Below are positions 1,708 through 30,140 of a stretch of DNA of 32,455 nt, one piece after another. The stretch covers positions 1 to 32,455 of IMG/VR virus record IMGVR_UViG_3300032893_000213. One strand, 5' to 3'. The DNA is from a virus. Position 1 is the first letter of the stretch. The number at the start of each line of letters is the position of its first letter. The notes under the pieces are model-generated. The model searched no databases. It was given only the letters and a program-made list of their open reading frames with translations, and had not been told where the DNA came from. The position numbers were made by a program, and so were the translations under genes.

Positions 1708-1906
1708 CTAAATTGTAAATGGACTGTTACAATAGACAATCCATAATAATTTTGCACCTAATAGAGAATTACATTCCCTACATGCTCGAACCTCAATGAA
1801 AGGAAATTCATTTATTAGTCCAGAAATCAAGAGTGTAACTCCTATAGGCTTGTGGTGGGATATGATCTATAGTATCACAAAATAAACCACAATAAATACA
1901 TATATT
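1708..1906 (-). pseudogene. Broken HNH endonuclease remnant (frameshifted)
   Basis: No long ORF is present, but two neighbouring minus frames read as one HNH nuclease. The first gives ICIYCG...DTIDHIPPQAY and then hits a stop after TNK. A neighbouring frame continues SGLINEFPFIEVRACRECNSLLGAKLL and stops at 1708. CxxCG, then DHIPP, then ACRECNSLLG is the hallmark of a common phage HNH family. There is no start codon, because the upstream frame runs into the endolysin gene, and the frames are out of register near the middle. It looks like a homing nuclease decaying just after the endolysin. Confidence 0.65.
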
Positions 1907-2699
1907 ACGTATTATTATATTTAACCATTGCTGCTTCGCTTAATGGTCCCCATAATCCATCTACTTGGCCAGTATAAAATCCTTCTTTTTGAAGCTCAGT
2001 CTGTAGACTTTCAATAATAGGTTTAACATTATCTTGTAGTACAGCAGGCTGTGGCTGTGGTTCAGGAACATGTACCACGGTCTGTCCTAAAATAGCACCA
2101 CCATAATCTCCTTGAACATCATCCATATCTACACTAACCCCAAATGCTGTTGTAGGAGCATGTTGATGGATTACCCATTTGTTACTTGCAAGAAAATCTT
2201 GAGTACCATATGAAGAATTTACACCCCATAACCAACATAAAGAAACTAATCCTGCATCAAGTAATGTTTGACATACAAGACCATTACCATATACACCAAT
2301 ACGATACTTTGATTGTGCTGTATCAAATACCTTCTTTACTGCCTGGAAGTATGCATAAATACCTAATGTTACTTGAGCCTTATTAGCATCCAAATCAACA
2401 GCAAAATAAATAGCTGCATTATCCGGTACATTTAATGTTTTTGCTTGAGCTAATGCTCTAGTTGCATCTTGTGTACCTTGATCTGTAGTAAAATTGCTAT
2501 AAAGGTCTCCTCTAGCTTCCCATACAAGGACAACCTTAATATTGTTATCTGAAAGTAGTTTGAATTCATCTGCATTCAAATTCTTTTCAGGATTATTACT
2601 AAGATATCTACAAATAGCTATAATAATTTGTCCTGATTGATTAATCTTACTAATTACTTGCTGTGTAACTCTAACTGCTGCATCAAAACTATTACTCAT
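1905..2699 (-). CDS. Endolysin: DUF1906 glycoside-hydrolase-like domain plus peptidoglycan-binding domain
   Basis: A 264-residue protein. Residues 3-205 match the Rv2525c/DUF1906 fold, seen in bacterial and phage lysins and related to GH25 barrels: FDAA near the start, ICRYLS at about 29-34, KVVLVWEARGD at about 55-65, AAIYFAVDLD at about 94-103, IGVYGNG at about 133-139 and VDMDDVQGDYGG at about 191-202. A Pro/Gln linker (PEPQPQP) leads to a PG_binding_1-like module, QTELQKEGFYTGQVDGLWGP. The module ends slightly short, at AMVKYNNT, where the HNH remnant begins. It probably cuts the host cell wall at lysis. It overlaps the preceding gene by four bases. The exact bond cleaved cannot be told. 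Confidence 0.8.
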   Translation of the reverse strand: MSNSFDAAVRVTQQVISKINQSGQIIIAICRYLSNNPEKNLNADEFKLLSDNNIKVVLVWEARGDLYSNFTTDQGTQDATRALAQAKTLNVPDNAAIYFAVDLDANKAQVTLGIYAYFQAVKKVFDTAQSKYRIGVYGNGLVCQTLLDAGLVSLCWLWGVNSSYGTQDFLASNKWVIHQHAPTTAFGVSVDMDDVQGDYGGAILGQTVVHVPEPQPQPAVLQDNVKPIIESLQTELQKEGFYTGQVDGLWGPLSEAAMVKYNNT

Positions 2700-2935: not shown

Positions 2936-3192
2936 GGATCAATTTCTTCTAAAAATTTCTTGATCATAAATTTATGAGAATTATAATAACTAGCTATAGA
3001 ATCATTATATTTATTATGATATTTTTTTAATAATAATTCTATAGTTAAAGGTTTTAAATATTTAAATTCAAATTTCTTTATATTATATAATGTTTCCTTT
3101 TTCTTATACCATTGTTTATGATAAAATCTAATTTTCTTCTTTATAAATATTTTTATAGAAAATTTAGTATCATATAAATAATATGTATTCAT
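2932..3192 (-). CDS. Small paralog family member B (unknown function)
   Basis: An 86-residue protein starting MNTYYLYDTKFSIKIF. It is strongly basic and aromatic, with LKPLTIELLLKKYH (about residues 46-59) and MIKKFLEEIDP at the C-terminus, the two blocks shared with its neighbours. An AAAGGA site sits upstream of the ATG. It is the first gene after the promoter at 3223-3251 and overlaps member A by four bases, so A, B and the endolysin form one operon. Function unknown. Confidence 0.6.
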   Translation of the reverse strand: MNTYYLYDTKFSIKIFIKKKIRFYHKQWYKKKETLYNIKKFEFKYLKPLTIELLLKKYHNKYNDSIASYYNSHKFMIKKFLEEIDP

Positions 3193-3505: not shown

Positions 3506-3591
3506 TGTGGTCCTCTTTCAAGAAATTCCTTAATGTATATCTTAAAGTTTTTCCAAGGATCGAGAATTTGATCTCCTATATAATAATTCAT
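3502..3591 (-). CDS. 29-residue mini-copy of the small paralog family
   Basis: It reads MNYYIGDQILDPWKNFKIYI followed by KEFLERGPQ. The start resembles the N-terminus of its neighbours (MNTYY/MTKYY) and the end resembles their IKEFLE block, with the whole middle missing. It is therefore probably an internally deleted copy that stays translated: it overlaps the GluRS stop (TAATG) at one end and the next ATG at the other. It may serve only to keep ribosomes moving between the two genes. Confidence 0.5.
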   Translation of the reverse strand: MNYYIGDQILDPWKNFKIYIKEFLERGPQ

Positions 3592-4523
3592 TAGGGTAAT
3601 CTTTTATTAATTTCTTTTTGTCTATTATCTAATTTATCTATATCTAAAGCGCAAGGAGAGTTTTTCAATTTACCTTCAAAAAACCACTCAATTGCTTTTT
3701 GTTTTGGAATAAATTGTGAAAATAATTTATTCATCTCTTTAGCTTCTGGTCCTCTAGGAATATTTAACGACCATCCCATTCTAATTAACCAATCTAACAT
3801 TACTTCAGCAGTATATCCTTTTTCTTTATAATCCATAAGACTAGAAGCCCCGTCTCTTTTAGAGAGTTTCTTATTATTTTGTGTAATTAACCCCAAATGT
3901 GCAAACTTAGGAAATGGTTTAGGACACTGAACATTACCATAAACCTCATTTAAGGCCATCCAGATAGCTAACTGCTTAGGAGTATTAGTAATATGATCAA
4001 CTCCACGAATGATATAATTAATCCCCATAAAATAATCGTCAATAATAGATGCCAATTGGTAAGTTGGTTTTCCCAATAATTCTGGCTTCTCTTGCTGGTA
4101 CCCTCTAAGCAATATTGTTTTACGATCAATCTGCTCTTTATTAGTTTCCGTAATAGCGATATCACCAGCAATATCATCATTAAACAATTTAGGCATACTA
4201 TAAGGATACAATAATGCAACGGCCCCATTGTCTAGCTCCACAGCTTTGTTGTGAAAGAGTAGATTCTTTGCTTCACTGATATAGAGATGTTCACGTTTAC
4301 TTTGATATTCTACTTTATCTGGCTTTAAACCTAACCATTCAAGAGATTGAAATATAATATCTGTATATTCCTTCTTATTTCGTTGTATATCAGTATCATC
4401 AATACGAAGAATGAATGTACCGCCTGAAGATTTAGCTGCTAAGTAGTTGATATAGGCTGTTCTACAAGTTCCGATATGCATCATACCGGTTGGTGAAGGA
4501 GCAATTCTAGTTATATATTTCAT
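3591..4523 (-). CDS. Minimal glutamyl-tRNA synthetase-like enzyme lacking the anticodon-binding domain
   Basis: A 310-residue class I synthetase of the GluRS/GlnRS group. The HIGH-type motif is APSPTGMMHIGT (about 8-19), followed by LRIDDTD; the usual GluRS glutamate of RIEDTD is aspartate here. Next come FNDDIAGDI, the tRNA-side PTYQLASIIDDYFMGINYIIRG and a KMSKS-type KKLSKRDGA (about 225-233). The zinc-binding insert after the first Rossmann half is largely missing. After KMSKS only the stem-contact part follows, ending at about the KLDxxN element, just where the C-terminal anticodon-binding domain of a normal GluRS (about 470 residues) begins. The active site looks intact, so glutamylation of an RNA acceptor is likely. 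The natural partner is probably the anticodon-less tRNA-Glu-like RNA at 934-1006. GluQ-RS is another truncated relative, but its cysteine cluster is absent here. A GGAG site lies in the end of the preceding gene (stop/start TAATG). Confidence 0.85.
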   Translation of the reverse strand: MKYITRIAPSPTGMMHIGTCRTAYINYLAAKSSGGTFILRIDDTDIQRNKKEYTDIIFQSLEWLGLKPDKVEYQSKREHLYISEAKNLLFHNKAVELDNGAVALLYPYSMPKLFNDDIAGDIAITETNKEQIDRKTILLRGYQQEKPELLGKPTYQLASIIDDYFMGINYIIRGVDHITNTPKQLAIWMALNEVYGNVQCPKPFPKFAHLGLITQNNKKLSKRDGASSLMDYKEKGYTAEVMLDWLIRMGWSLNIPRGPEAKEMNKLFSQFIPKQKAIEWFFEGKLKNSPCALDIDKLDNRQKEINKRLP

Positions 4524-5865: not shown

Positions 5866-6068
5866 ATATATTTTCTTATTTCTTTATAACCGCAAATTTT
5901 ATCTGGTAGTTGATCCCATGTTTCTTCTGAAACAAGCATAGGAAACTCAACGAAGCGCTTTAACCATTTCTGCAATGATTTCGCTTCTTGTTCACTATTG
6001 CATTTCCATGATGTATCTTCTTTGAAATGCTCACTGAAAAGATACACATAGACTATATCCTTTTTCAT
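5853..6068 (-). CDS. Small hypothetical protein, 71 residues
   Basis: I chose the start at 6068 (MKKDIVYVYLFSEHF) because GGGAGAAAAAG lies just before it; a longer in-frame reading to 6152 lacks a ribosome site and crosses the 20-bp inverted repeat. The protein has a beta-like start, then WKCNSEQEAKSLQKWLKRF and a charged tail ending RKYIRAQ. It ends within a terminator hairpin. Its leader contains one arm of the repeat that also lies upstream of the 511-residue gene. No family recognised. Confidence 0.55.
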   Translation of the reverse strand: MKKDIVYVYLFSEHFKEDTSWKCNSEQEAKSLQKWLKRFVEFPMLVSEETWDQLPDKICGYKEIRKYIRAQ

Positions 6069-6089
6069 CACTTTTTCTCCCTTCTCTGC

Positions 6090-6109
6090 CAACATACCGC
6101 TAGAACACT
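6090..6109. repeat. Left arm of a perfect 20-bp inverted repeat
   Basis: This 20-base sequence is the exact reverse complement of 7758-7777. The pair encloses the GC-rich gene 6168-7703. Within one leftward RNA the two arms could pair over 1.65 kb. Confidence 0.85.
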
Positions 6110-6120
6110 CAAAGAGGATT

Positions 6121-6150
6121 GCTAGGGATACCCTTACGGATACCCCTAGC
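6121..6150 (-). other. 13-bp RNA hairpin with GTAA tetraloop after the 511-residue gene
   Basis: All 30 bases fold as GCTAGGGGTATCC, a GTAA loop, then GGGTATCCCTAGC, with two G-T pairs and no mismatch. No T tract follows, so it is more likely a 3' stabiliser, a processing site or a Rho-assisted stop than an intrinsic terminator. Confidence 0.65.
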
Positions 6151-6167
6151 AAGTCTGTAGTCAGATA

Positions 6168-7805: not shown

Positions 7806-8938
7806 TTGTGGGAATCCAGTGTGATCTCTCAGGGAACGTTCTGTACCCCTGTAGCAAGCCGACAGCCTATTGGCTTAGATGCTTGCCTGATCGCCTGTGC
7901 ACGCTGTTGTTATTACCTGCGGCACTAACAGGGGAAGCGTTACGCGCTTACCAGTCCGGGAGAGAGATTTAGTTATTCGTCTTTAACCTCCTTACGCAAT
8001 TAGTGCCACCTACTGAGATGGGTATTAAACAAGTACCTTTCAAGGGGCAGATTTGTTTAATCTGTTTACCATTTCAGTATAGCTATTATCTCATATACGC
8101 ATAGCTAAGTCAAATCTGTAACAGTGAGTTGGCATGATTCTTGCCCAAATAGTTATTTTGACTAAAAGTTGTATTTTTAAGTACACCCTCTAGTAGGCCA
8201 TTACTGATTACAGTTAAAGATAACTGTTTAGGTAGAACTATTAAGGAGATACTGTAAGAGTTGTTATTAGTTACACAAAAAAACAAACATTAATTATCCC
8301 CCTATATATCAACCTAAGTGTAAAACCTTATAGTTATTCCTAACGATTACTTGAATGAATACTTAACGAATATTGTAGTGACTACATATAGTTAGTAGCC
8401 TTTAAGTATGACACTAGTGGTTGATTTAGGAGGGTGCTAGGACCATGTAGCCCTAATTATAATTCGTATATTTAAACATTACAAAAATTCAAAATTAAGT
8501 TTTTCAACTAAATCAATCCTTTAGGTTGATAACCAAGATCAATCTTTAAGAATATTTTCTAAAAAAAATACAGAATTAGAATATCAACCAATGTTAAGGA
8601 GAAACTTGAAGGAGAACTATAGAGGTATAAGGTGGAGAAGACATAGTTACCCCTTTACGGAATAACTATGTTTCTGAGCTATAAGTATGGAGCCAGATCA
8701 TACAGGATAGGTAAACCCAATCAGCTTTTAGCTGATCAGGGAAAGCAGGTTAGCGGTCTCTTTTTACTACCAAGTTATCATCTAACGGAGGATTGCTGCT
8801 AGCCTTCCTGTGACTAACAGTCCTTGTGGGTAATTCTCCCACTCACTTGTTAATGGGTACTTCTTTTGGCAGGTGTGCTTATGGTCTATCGTCCCACTGT
8901 GAAACACACATAGTATGGCCTTTAAAATTATACTACGT
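7806..8938 (-). ncRNA. 1.1-kb gene-free, hairpin-rich region; candidate long structured RNA
   Basis: No ORF with a ribosome site is present in any frame. Transcription would start at the leftward promoter 8939-8967. Many local helices are visible: ACATAGTTA/TAACTATGT (about 8642-8672), an 11-bp CCC(T)GATCAGCT/AGCTGATTGGG hairpin (about 8718-8742), GTGGG/CCCAC (8826-8842), CAGATT/AATCTG (about 8050-8066), AAGCG/CGCTT (about 7936-7950) and a long GCAAGC/GCTTGC arm with an inner AGCC/GGCT (about 7854-7888). Base composition shifts from GC-rich (7.8-8.0 kb) to AT-rich. Size and setting recall large phage RNAs such as GOLLD or ROOL, but I cannot match either. It could also be a long leader of the 511-residue gene. 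Confidence 0.45.
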
Positions 8939-8967
8939 ATTATATCATACTTTCACTAAAATGTCAA
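8939..8967 (-). promoter_or_regulatory. Sigma-70-type promoter, leftward half of the divergent pair
   Basis: On the minus strand: consensus TTGACA, 17 bases, consensus TATAAT. The predicted start is near 8932, so it would transcribe the hairpin-rich gene-free region toward the 511-residue gene. Confidence 0.8.
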
Positions 8968-9000: not shown

Positions 9001-9029
9001 TTGACAAATTCATCAAAATGTGGTATAAC
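9001..9029 (+). promoter_or_regulatory. Sigma-70-type promoter, rightward half of the divergent pair
   Basis: TTGACA at 9001-9006, 17 bases, TATAAC at 9024-9029. The predicted start is about 9036, the very A of the first ATG. Confidence 0.75.
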
Positions 9030-26745: not shown

Positions 26746-29618
26746 ATGGCATTCCAAGTTGCTGCCGGTTGGCAGAATTTGCCGAATGGTTAGAAAATAG
26801 CCTATTATAAGAGTAATCTTATATTTAGCCACAGCAGGTTAATTGCTGGAAACTCCTTATTAAGGACAATCAGCAGCTAAGCATTAAATTTTTGCAAATA
26901 TGCTATAGCATTTAATAAACGATTTTCATTATCTTTAAATCTACCTAATCCTATATTACAATCATGACACAATAAAGCTCTAATTTGTCCAGTTGTATGA
27001 GAGTGATCTACACAAGGTTCATCTTTAGGAAACGGTTCTTTACAGATTTCACAAACAGGATATAAATCTAGAAGTTGTTTATATTGTTCTTTAGATACTC
27101 CGTATTTATACTTAACTATATTAAATCTACGAATTTCTTTAGAAGAATTTTTTTTACTGCGTAATTTGAAACAATAAATACATTCAGTAGCATAACCATT
27201 TCTTGGTTTACCGTTTCTAATTCCATTTTTATAATATTCTGTTTCTTCGTTTTTAAATTCTTTACAAGTTCTACATTGTTTAAGCATTAATTGTACAAAT
27301 CCTTTCTTTTTTATTTTGTCCAATTATATCATATTTTTGATAATTTGTCAAGTAATTTTTTGAAAGTTCAACGACTATCTCGTAAGAGAGTACATCTAAG
27401 TAGATGGAAATGCCTGCCATCCTAATAGGATGAAGATATAGTCTGGTCTTTATGGTAACATAAAGCAGCGAAAGCGGTCTTAGATTAACGAACTAAGACG
27501 AACAAAACGAATTTCGTTCCTCAGATTTTTAGCCAAAAAGTACAAAAATTCTTTCGGCGAGAATCAGTAGTAGAAGCAATTACAAATACTGACTACTATG
27601 GAGAAATTTCAGAATTCGGTGATACCGTATTTATCATCAAGGAACCAGTAATCACTGTTGCTCCATATGCTCGTGGCACCACTGTATTACCACAGGCTTT
27701 AGCAGATGATGAATTAACACTAGTCGTCGATCAGGCCAATTATTTTGGCTTTAAGGTTAATCATAGCCCTGTACATTAGGAATAATGTAATTGAAATTAG
27801 GAGAATTGCTGGAAAGTGCTAATAAGAACCAAAAATCTTATTCAAAAAGATTATAGGTTAACAGTTAAAGGAAGATTAGTATCTATTTATAATAGTGCTA
27901 AGAAAAGATCAAAACTAAAGGATATAGAATTTACTATTATTCCAGAAGATTTAGTAGAGATTTATTATAAGCAAAATGGAAAGTGTGCAATATCTGGCTT
28001 AGAAATGAGTTTAGAATCTAGTTCACGACATAAAGCAAATACTTTTATTGTATCCATAGATCGAATTGATTCAGATAAAGGTTATACAAAAGATAATATT
28101 CAATTCTTATGTTGGCAAATAAATAAAATGAAAAGCAATCTAACAGAAGATGAATTTAAATTTTGGATTAGGATAATCAGCAGCCGAGTCCTCTAAAAAG
28201 GAAAGGTTCAACGGCCATCCCTGAAATGGGAGTACACTTTAAGTAAAGTGGAAGTACCTAACATCCAGAACGGATGAAGATATGGTCTGATCTATATGGT
28301 AACATATAGTAGCTTAAGAAGCAGCTAAGAGTAACGAACTTAGTGAACACAAATGCGATGATATCGAAAACAAACAATCACACGTAAACTGGGAAGAGCT
28401 AGCAACTAGCTCTGGTGCATATTCTCTAAAGGATACTTTCGATAAGGAAGTCCTTTATTATATGACCACTCAGGTTTCTACTTCAAATCCAAACATGGTT
28501 CTCGGCTCTGCCGGTGCTCCATTAACTGTTGGCTTTGCTAGTGGTAATACTTCCCCTCTTTATGTGCTTAATAGGCTTTCTCGTTTCTTAGATGAACAAA
28601 ATATTCCTTCAGATAATCGTTGGTGTGTCGCACCACCTGTTAATACAGATAGCAGGGCTTAAAAGTAATTTTAAGAAAGAATTCTAGGTGAATTGCTGGA
28701 AAATCCTTAAAAGGACAATCAGCAGCTAAGCTAATAAAATATGAAAAAGTGTAGAATTTGTAATATTGTTAAATCAATCCAAGAATTTCGTCCATATGGG
28801 GGAAATAGAAAAGGAGTAAGAACTCTTTGTAGAAAATGTGAACTGGACATAAGAAGAAAATATGAATATCCTTATCGTGCTGAAAAAGCAAAATATTATA
28901 AAATAAAAGATCGATATGGATTGACAAAAGAAGAATATGATTCTCTAATAGAGAATAATCCAGTTTGTAAAAGCTGTAAAGAAGAATTTACAAATACTCC
29001 ACATGTAGATCATGATCATAAAACAGGAATAGTTCGTGGTCTATTATGTAATAAATGTAACAAAGCATTAGGACTTTTAAATGATGATCCTATTAAGATT
29101 GTAAATTTACTACAATATTTATTAGAAAGTTCAGAGACTATCTCGAAAGAGAGTACACTCAAGCGAGTGGAAGTGCCTAGCCCCTAAATAGGGTGAAGAT
29201 ATAGTCCGATCCTTATGGTAACATAAGGCAGCTTGAATAAAGCGGCATTAAAATAGCAATTTAATGTGAACATAAATGTTTCTGGGAAAAAGTTCAAGAT
29301 GAATCAAGCAAGCTAATTGGTATCGATTGGCAGTCAAGTGCTAGCGATCAGTCAATTCTACGTAACGGTCGTGTTCTAAACGGCAAGATTCGTGGTTTTG
29401 ATTCTTATCGTAGCAACAACATTCCTCTCGATAGCTCAAGCAATTATCAGCTTATGGTTGGTCATATGAGTTCAACTGCATCTGCCTCACAGATTGCTAA
29501 GGTTGAAAAGTTCCGTGATCCAACTTCATTTGCAGATGTTGTCCGTGGTCTTCATATGTTTGGTCGTAAGGTTCTCCGTACGACTGCTATGGGCCTCTGC
29601 CACTTCCTCGTCAGCTAA
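26746..29618 (+). CDS. Major capsid protein, split into four exons by three group I introns
   Basis: Exons 26746-26790, 27510-27757, 28356-28640 and 29279-29618 join to 306 codons (305 residues) in one frame; no exon is a gene alone. The joined protein starts MAFQVAAGWQNLPNG|NFVPQIF, runs through NYFGFKV|DDIENKQ and CVAPPV|FWEKVQ, and ends LCHFLVS, a typical major capsid protein of this phage type by sequence flavour, length and position. Each 5' splice site follows a T and each intron ends in G, as group I introns require. Without splicing, translation stops after codon 15. Codons here are richer in G/C-ending forms than neighbours, as for highly expressed capsid genes. Confidence 0.88.
26877..27287 (-). 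CDS. Intron 1 endonuclease, endonuclease VII/HNH type, antisense to the capsid gene
   Basis: Start chosen at ATG 27287 (MLKQCRTCKEFKNEETEYY), with GAAAGGA upstream; the longer frame begins in the promoter. 136 residues with an N-terminal zinc ribbon CRTC...CIYC, then CEICKEPFP...CVDHSHTTGQIRALLCHDCNIGLGRFKDN. C-x2-C, D-H-x-H, G-x-(I/V)-R-x-LLC-x2-CN-x-x-LG is the endonuclease VII (T4 gp49-like) fold used by many homing nucleases. It has its own sigma-70 promoter (27323-27351), so it can be made when the late strand is silent. Confidence 0.8.
   Translation of the reverse strand: MLKQCRTCKEFKNEETEYYKNGIRNGKPRNGYATECIYCFKLRSKKNSSKEIRRFNIVKYKYGVSKEQYKQLLDLYPVCEICKEPFPKDEPCVDHSHTTGQIRALLCHDCNIGLGRFKDNENRLLNAIAYLQKFNA
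27323..27351 (-). promoter_or_regulatory. Sigma-70-type promoter inside intron 1 for the antisense endonuclease
   Basis: On the minus strand: consensus TTGACA, 17 bases, consensus TATAAT, about 30 bases from the start codon. Same design as the leftward-region promoters. Confidence 0.8.
27758..28355 (+). ncRNA. Group I intron 2 in the capsid gene
   Basis: 598 bases. Same td-like core: GAATTGCTGGAAA, then after the ORF AATCAGCAGC; P7 is GGCCAT with ATGGTC (compensating changes relative to introns 1 and 3); P9 is CTATATG-GTAA-CATATAG; the 3' end is GAACACAAATG. The 5' site splits a GTC valine codon (GT|C). Its ORF lies in the P5 arm. Confidence 0.85.
27816..28196 (+). CDS. Intron 2 HNH endonuclease, embedded in the ribozyme P5 arm
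   Basis: 126 residues from GTG 27816, just after the 5' strand of P4. It reads NSAKKRSKLKDIEFTI..., YYKQNGKCAISGLEMSLE..., FIVSIDRIDSDKGYTKDNIQFLCWQINKMKSN. C-x-I-S-G, then S-x-D-R-I-D-x-x-x-G-Y-x-x-x-N-(I/V)-Q, then (N)-x-K-x-x is a well-known HNH nuclease pattern. The last codons (ATC AGC AGC) lie in the P4 3' strand, so protein and ribozyme share bases. A GGAGAA precedes by 12-16 bases, so initiation may be weak. Confidence 0.75.
   Translation: MLIRTKNLIQKDYRLTVKGRLVSIYNSAKKRSKLKDIEFTIIPEDLVEIYYKQNGKCAISGLEMSLESSSRHKANTFIVSIDRIDSDKGYTKDNIQFLCWQINKMKSNLTEDEFKFWIRIISSRVL
28641..29278 (+). ncRNA. Group I intron 3 in the capsid gene
   Basis: 638 bases. GAATTGCTGGAAA ... ACAATCAGCAGC core; P7 is GACTAT with ATAGTC; P9 is CCTTATG-GTAA-CATAAGG; the 3' end is GAACATAAATG. 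P1 is clear: exon CCTGT pairs with intron GCAGG, including the splice-site U-G pair. The 5' site splits a valine codon (GT|T). The ORF starts in the P6 region. Confidence 0.87.
28741..29187 (+). CDS. Intron 3 endonuclease, endonuclease VII/HNH type
   Basis: 148 residues, MKKCRICNIVKSIQEFRPYG. An N-terminal CRIC...CRKC ribbon is followed by CKSCKEEFTNTPHVDHDHKTGIVRGLLCNKCNKALGLLNDD, the same family as the intron 1 enzyme but clearly diverged. About the last 17 codons (from SETISKEST) run through the P7 5' strand and the P3/P8 region of the ribozyme, so the C-terminus is dictated by RNA structure. No good ribosome site precedes the ATG. Confidence 0.8.
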   Translation: MKKCRICNIVKSIQEFRPYGGNRKGVRTLCRKCELDIRRKYEYPYRAEKAKYYKIKDRYGLTKEEYDSLIENNPVCKSCKEEFTNTPHVDHDHKTGIVRGLLCNKCNKALGLLNDDPIKIVNLLQYLLESSETISKESTLKRVEVPSP

Positions 29619-29633
29619 TAGGAGTATTTAAAT

Positions 29634-30140
29634 ATGGCTTCTTATTATCCTAAATACTACTATCATGATGCTGTCGGTATAGGCACAAGTGATGTTAAGC
29701 CTGTATACCATTCTCGTTTAATCGACTTTGCTGTACAGAATGTTACCTCAAGTGATACTATGTATTGTCTTGCAATTCCTGCTTATACAGCAGTTCTACT
29801 TTGCAATTATCAGACTATCACTACTGTAACTGGTGGTAACATCACTATTGCATCTAAGACGGATGCTGTAACTTATGTTGCTGCTGCGTCTCCTGTAGCT
29901 GCTGGTTCCTATGGTACACCTGCTACTATTAGTGCAAGTACTGCACAGCATTGGTTTACTGCGGATGATGATATTGTCCTTACAGAGTCTAGTACTACTC
30001 TATCTGCTGGTCAGATACGAGTATTTGCTCAGATGTTATATCCTCAGCCTTATAAGTACACTGATGTTGATGGTCAGGCCCATACTTATACTTTCACTGA
30101 TCGTAACAATTGGGTTACCACAGCACCTACAATCCCCTAA
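29634..30140 (+). CDS. Probable head decoration or minor structural protein
   Basis: 168 residues after a TAGGAG site 15 bases behind the capsid stop. MASYYPKYYYHDAVGIGTSD, then beta-rich Thr/Ala/Ser sequence (TTVTGGNITIASKTDAV) and a C-terminal YTDVDGQAHTYTFTDRNNW. Position right after the capsid gene and the beta-rich texture fit a decoration protein. It is followed by a terminator. Confidence 0.6.
   Translation: MASYYPKYYYHDAVGIGTSDVKPVYHSRLIDFAVQNVTSSDTMYCLAIPAYTAVLLCNYQTITTVTGGNITIASKTDAVTYVAAASPVAAGSYGTPATISASTAQHWFTADDDIVLTESSTTLSAGQIRVFAQMLYPQPYKYTDVDGQAHTYTFTDRNNWVTTAPTIP

Follow-up and report, generated by a model that had tools for sequence, protein, structure and literature searches.

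An endonuclease VII-type nuclease gene on the antisense strand of a group I intron in a phage coat gene, with a consensus promoter of its own

Homing endonuclease genes (HEGs) residing in late genes face a problem of timing: the nuclease is needed when the genome of an intronless competitor is present, and a sense HEG without a promoter of its own depends on the late transcript to be read. In the first intron of the phage coat gene described here, the nuclease gene lies on the strand opposite the capsid gene. The locus raises the question of how such a gene would be expressed, and whether its orientation serves homing, regulation or nothing at all.

The coat gene and its introns

The window, i.e. 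the whole stretch of DNA that was analysed, is a 32,455-b phage contig from IMG/VR and probably an incomplete genome, since phages with related coat genes measure 52-68 kb. Its rightward gene set includes a terminase, an SU10-like portal and an adaptor. The P22-like major coat protein gene (26746-29640) is interrupted by three group I introns and carries three nuclease genes, two of the endonuclease VII (EndoVII) type and one of another HNH type. Precise removal of the introns yields an uninterrupted 305-aa coat protein, matching the PHROG major head protein (E=5e-56) and akin to the coat proteins of Pelagibacter/Roseobacter/HMO-2011-type phages. In a distant capsid search, almost all matches are uninterrupted genes. 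The features of the locus are as follows.

26746..26790, plus strand: coat exon 1, 15 codons, with a start identical in the relatives L003 and L008
26791..27509, plus strand: group I intron 1, 719 nt, IA2-like, HEG in the P6 loop (from splicing, RF00028 and a covariance model)
26877..27287, minus strand: ORF of the antisense homing-type nuclease (136 aa), assigned to the Endonuclease VII (F-CphI-like) family from PF02945 and active-site residues
27300..27306, minus strand: Shine-Dalgarno-like GAAAGGA, located 12 nt 5' of the ATG at 27287
27323..27351, minus strand: predicted promoter TTGACA-17-TATAAT, 12/12, with an extended -10 (TGA before TATAAT) and a predicted transcription start at ~27316
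27367..27471, plus strand: 3' part of the ribozyme core of intron 1 (P7-P3-P8-P7-P9), just outside the HEG and its promoter
27510..27757, plus strand: coat exon 2, placed by exact splicing
27758..28355, plus strand: group I intron 2 with a sense HNH-type ORF (27816-28196) that lacks an upstream consensus promoter
28641..29278, plus strand: group I intron 3 with a sense Endonuclease VII ORF (28741-29187), likewise in the P6 loop and lacking an upstream consensus promoter

All three introns match Rfam family RF00028 with E-values from 6e-10 to 2e-7, each slightly under the gathering score; for intron 1 the match covers 27330-27465 (E=6e-10) and reaches 46.2 bits against a gathering score of 50 bits. 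A covariance model (R1) trained on 35 IMG/VR phage intron cores, among them those of introns 1 and 2 but not that of intron 3, scores the three introns at 92-105 bits. The highest value, 105 bits at 27367-27471, belongs to intron 1, whose core is thus part of the training set. Intron 1 shows the features of an IA2-like group I intron; (i) a P3-P9 core; (ii) a U at the end of the 5' exon, the splice site following GGU; (iii) G as the last intron base; (iv) a coat reading frame restored by splicing. Among related introns, P3 covaries as judged by eye (GCAGG/CCUGC, CUAGG/CCUAG, UCGGG/CCCGA, UUAGG/CCUAA). By these characters intron 1 is a group I intron, predicted to be self-splicing.

The antisense nuclease and its promoter

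The ORF lister placed the minus-strand reading frame of intron 1 at 26877-27323 with a TTG start, which was rejected because it overlaps the -10 box; the usable start codon is the ATG at 27287-27285 (-), with the stop at 26877. The resulting protein of 136 aa matches Pfam PF02945, Endonuclease_7 (E=6e-18), and PHROG 2633, endonuclease VII (E=2e-32). It contains the CX2-4C ... DHxH ... R ... CX2C-N motif of the F-CphI family, and the zinc-binding cysteines C79, C82, C107 and C110, together with the catalytic residues D94, H95, H97, R103 and N111, occupy invariant columns of alignment A1. The same zinc-binding and catalytic residues have been listed for T4 Endo VII and F-CphI (PMC6083498). Judged by these residues, the ORF encodes a putative homing nuclease of the EndoVII type, and the description of a nuclease antisense to the capsid gene within intron 1, given in an earlier note on this DNA, is borne out, the host intron being of group I.

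A single-sequence search found no close homologue of this nuclease. Among 80 EndoVII loci, only one is close to a group I core; it is sense and F-CphI-like. Derivation of the gene as an inverted copy of the intron 3 HEG is unsupported: the two share 36% identity, no higher than the identity to free-standing phage homologues, and they do not group in a poorly resolved EndoVII tree.

The promoter of the nuclease, described in the same note as a consensus element just upstream, was recovered as a perfect match at 27351..27323 (-), with TG one base 5' of the -10 hexamer. The window contains one other perfect 12/12 match, at 8967..8939 (-), against an expectation of ~0.07 per window (first-order Markov simulation, spacer 16-18, both strands). 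A stricter class was defined as TTGAC-N15-TGnTATAnT. It has six exact matches in the window, all on the minus strand, and none in 100 shuffles; five belong to the leftward gene cluster and the sixth is the intron 1 promoter. The promoters of this class outside the intron are listed below.

8939..8967, minus strand: second 12/12 promoter, an exact match to the class, at the head of the leftward cluster
1702, 3251, 4992 and 5551, minus strand: further class promoters in the leftward cluster, with a near-match at 8113 (pattern scan)
9001..9029, plus strand: divergent rightward promoter with one mismatch to the class (pattern scan)

The spacer of the promoter at 9001 (+), TTGACAAATTCATCAAAATGTGGTATAAC, is similar to that of the intron 1 promoter, TTGACAAATTATCAAAAATATGATATAAT. 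The noted likeness to the promoters of the leftward genes thus holds, and on this pattern the intron 1 HEG and the leftward genes are served by one host-polymerase-type promoter class.

The leftward cluster encodes an Rv2525c-like glycoside hydrolase (1905-2699, minus strand) that also shows a weak peptidoglycan-binding match. Since this gene is endolysin-like, the cluster is not purely early, so that the promoter class preceding it may act constitutively instead of at early times alone, and the term 'early' may be wrong for it. The same strand encodes, at 3591-4523, a 310-aa class I Glu/Gln-tRNA synthetase catalytic domain (PF00749, E=6e-51), short and resembling GluQ-type enzymes without an anticodon-binding domain.

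Related alleles, recurrence and known systems

Close relatives of the phage provide further states of the intron 1 site. In L003, with a coat identity of 92%, a HEG-less intron of ~272 nt occupies the identical codon, and the coat genes of L004-L006 are intronless. The site is therefore known as occupied (window), HEG-less (L003) and empty (L004-L006), a series that fits homing as far as allele comparison can indicate it.

In a further relative, L008, the intron 2 site is likewise occupied; the HEG there is sense, 47% identical to that of the window and preceded by a 12/12 promoter of the TTGAC-N15-TGnTATAnT class. A different intron of L008 lies ~11 codons downstream of the intron 1 site and holds in P6 a decayed antisense EndoVII copy, N-terminally truncated and lacking the DHxH motif, with an antisense promoter of the class in the P8 loop. 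HEGs of both orientations in the introns of this lineage thus appear, by pattern match, to carry promoters of this class.

Two side observations concern the same relatives. A coat exon of L008 contains, at 3177-3189, a 10-nt insertion (AATAAATCGA) relative to all relatives, which creates an in-frame TAA and a frameshift; a sequencing error, a byp-like element and a broken gene are candidate explanations. In L004, a leftward promoter of the class (5975-6165, minus strand) separates rightward structural genes, sitting in a gap of 200 nt, and reads a small leftward ORF (MFIISMQFFNHLKEFRDL...). Leftward mini-cassettes within the structural cluster may be a wider theme in the lineage.

The frequency of the antisense layout was assessed in two IMG/VR surveys of group I introns, both blind to promoters, which covered 129 cores and 102 P4-P5 hits, the latter including the introns of the window. 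Sense HEGs numbered roughly 20 and 18, respectively, and in neither survey was an antisense HEG found inside an intron outside the window. A scan of the 150 nt upstream of 27 sense intron HEGs found no promoter of at least 11/12. Two candidates for in-intron antisense HEGs, L076 (LAGLIDADG_2) and L127 (GIY-YIG), were discarded, since each is located 5' of coat exon 1. They represent antisense nucleases (4733-5743 in L076, 4222-5337 in L127) located directly upstream of intron-containing coat genes, an arrangement like that of segD.

Searching specifically for antisense TTGAC-N15-TGnTATAnT promoters just 5' of P7 gave four loci. Three of them (L423-L425, all rumen contigs) are genuine: a group I intron of another capsid gene bears in P6 an antisense nuclease of phrog_559 (E=2e-64), a family unrelated to EndoVII, behind TTGACT-17-TATAAT with an extended -10 and a ribosome-binding site (RBS). 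L426 and 12 other promoter-plus-P7 matches were rejected, since no group I core follows; every match with a group I core (3/3) carried an antisense HEG. A relaxed pattern applied to viral and bacterial collections added only matches without such a core. The three loci, of which L423 ends at a contig edge, are closely alike in layout and were counted as one independent recurrence. Having been found through the promoter, they are evidence of a recurring layout but give no measure of how frequently antisense HEGs bear promoters. The antisense HEG with its own promoter is rare but recurrent. No report of a phage intron with an antisense HEG was found in the searchable open-access literature, whose coverage is incomplete.

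The earlier remark that the orientation departs from that of T4 agrees with the literature, in which all T4 HEGs are co-oriented except the free-standing segD, and the known endonuclease-specific promoters are middle or late, with no early one (PMC2988022). I-TevI, I-TevII and I-TevIII, of the T4 td, nrdD and nrdB introns, are likewise intron-encoded nucleases with dedicated intron-internal promoters, but they are sense, use middle/late T4 promoters and belong to GIY-YIG or other HNH families (PMC2988022). The intron 1 HEG has neither the orientation nor the promoter of the T4 type, being antisense behind a sigma70 consensus promoter. T4 segD, between genes 23 and 24, is also antisense to the major capsid region; however, it is a free-standing GIY-YIG gene with no recognisable promoter (PMC2988022). 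F-CphI of cyanophage S-PM2 shares the EndoVII family but is free-standing and co-oriented with psbA, whereas the intron 1 nuclease is intron-encoded, on the opposite strand and has its own consensus promoter (PMC6083498).

A similar layout is known from myxomycete nuclear rDNA, where HEGs (Dir.S956-2; I-DsqI, Dsq.L2066) occupy the opposite strand of a group I intron and are transcribed separately, counted here as a likeness to intron 1 (PMC9548176). These systems differ in being eukaryotic, with His-Cys box nucleases, proposed RNA pol II transcription, an rRNA host gene and spliceosomal introns (PMC9548176). The intron 1 HEG likewise lies opposite the ribozyme strand but combines an EndoVII nuclease with a bacterial promoter, so that it would work like the myxomycete antisense intron HEGs without being a member of that group. 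In Tuc2009 (orf38), a group I intron interrupts the major head protein gene, again a capsid gene, and its nuclease shares 46% identity with the antisense phrog_559 HEG of L425. Unlike the intron 1 nuclease, it is sense, and its best upstream promoter match is 9/12 plus TG.

Origin and possible role of the antisense cassette

We consider it likely that intron 1 is a mobile intron with a reverse-oriented homing cassette, in which nuclease expression is uncoupled from capsid transcription and which homes into intronless alleles. The HEG would have been acquired in reverse orientation in the P6 loop as a self-contained cassette of an extended -10 sigma70-type consensus promoter, an RBS and an EndoVII nuclease. 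Transcription by host RNA polymerase would then free nuclease production from the rightward capsid transcript, and probably let it begin ahead of capsid synthesis. When relatives co-infect, the enzyme would cleave their intronless coat alleles, and repair would copy the intron into the cut allele. Independent expression is not needed for intron persistence, because introns 2 and 3 have sense HEGs without such promoters.

The minus-strand RNA itself might be the functional product, repressing or delaying coat expression or intron splicing, with the nuclease as a passenger or by-product; this is considered unlikely. The earlier note had proposed that the RNA would be antisense to the intron and could disturb its folding. 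The antisense overlap fails for P7-P9, since the predicted transcript starts in the P6 loop, and for P1-P5 and exon 1 it applies only by read-through past the HEG stop. Such read-through past 26877 is possible, because no strong minus-strand terminator was found between the stop and the gene upstream, and its RNA would oppose P1-P5, exon 1 and the coat RBS. There is a parallel in S-PM2, where the CfrI antisense RNA links psbA and F-CphI, a nuclease of the same family (PMC2984593), and in L008 the antisense promoter is intact despite the truncated HEG. However, the cassette includes an RBS and encodes a nuclease with its active site complete, and the same promoter class before the sense intron 2 HEG of L008 argues that the promoter serves the nuclease. 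As an accompaniment to homing, interference of the antisense RNA with coat expression or splicing is possible.

It is also rather improbable that the cassette landed by accident in either orientation, bringing or capturing a promoter, so that orientation and timing have no selected role. EndoVII relatives are mostly free-standing, and since the gene does not group with the intron 3 nuclease in the poorly resolved tree, it does not have to derive from a local copy by inversion. Against an accident, an unrelated nuclease recurs in other phages with the same loop, orientation and promoter type, and the antisense promoter is present in L008. This explanation overlaps with the mobile-cassette reading, and for the orientation alone the two are hard to tell apart. 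Finally, a decaying or non-homing EndoVII-type protein merely located in the intron is very improbable: PF02945 also includes resolvases and L008 demonstrates that decay occurs, but all catalytic and zinc residues, the RBS and the promoter are intact, the size is close to that of F-CphI (142 aa), and the P6 location is that of the intron 3 sense HEG.

Under the reading of a mobile intron with a reverse-oriented cassette, the antisense gene with its host-type promoter solves the timing problem of late-gene HEGs in a way visible in the sequence, and the reappearance of the layout with an unrelated nuclease suggests selection. A more general proposal can be put forward only tentatively: that a two-strand architecture recurs in group I introns of phage late genes, with the ribozyme on the late strand and the nuclease opposite, read from a host-polymerase promoter. 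Homing and capsid production would then be separated in time, and the antisense RNA may restrain capsid mRNA or splicing until the switch. The locus offers a testable model of how phage HEGs are captured and timed and of what the antisense orientation costs, questions previously discussed mainly for the sense HEGs of T4 and the antisense HEGs of myxomycete rDNA.
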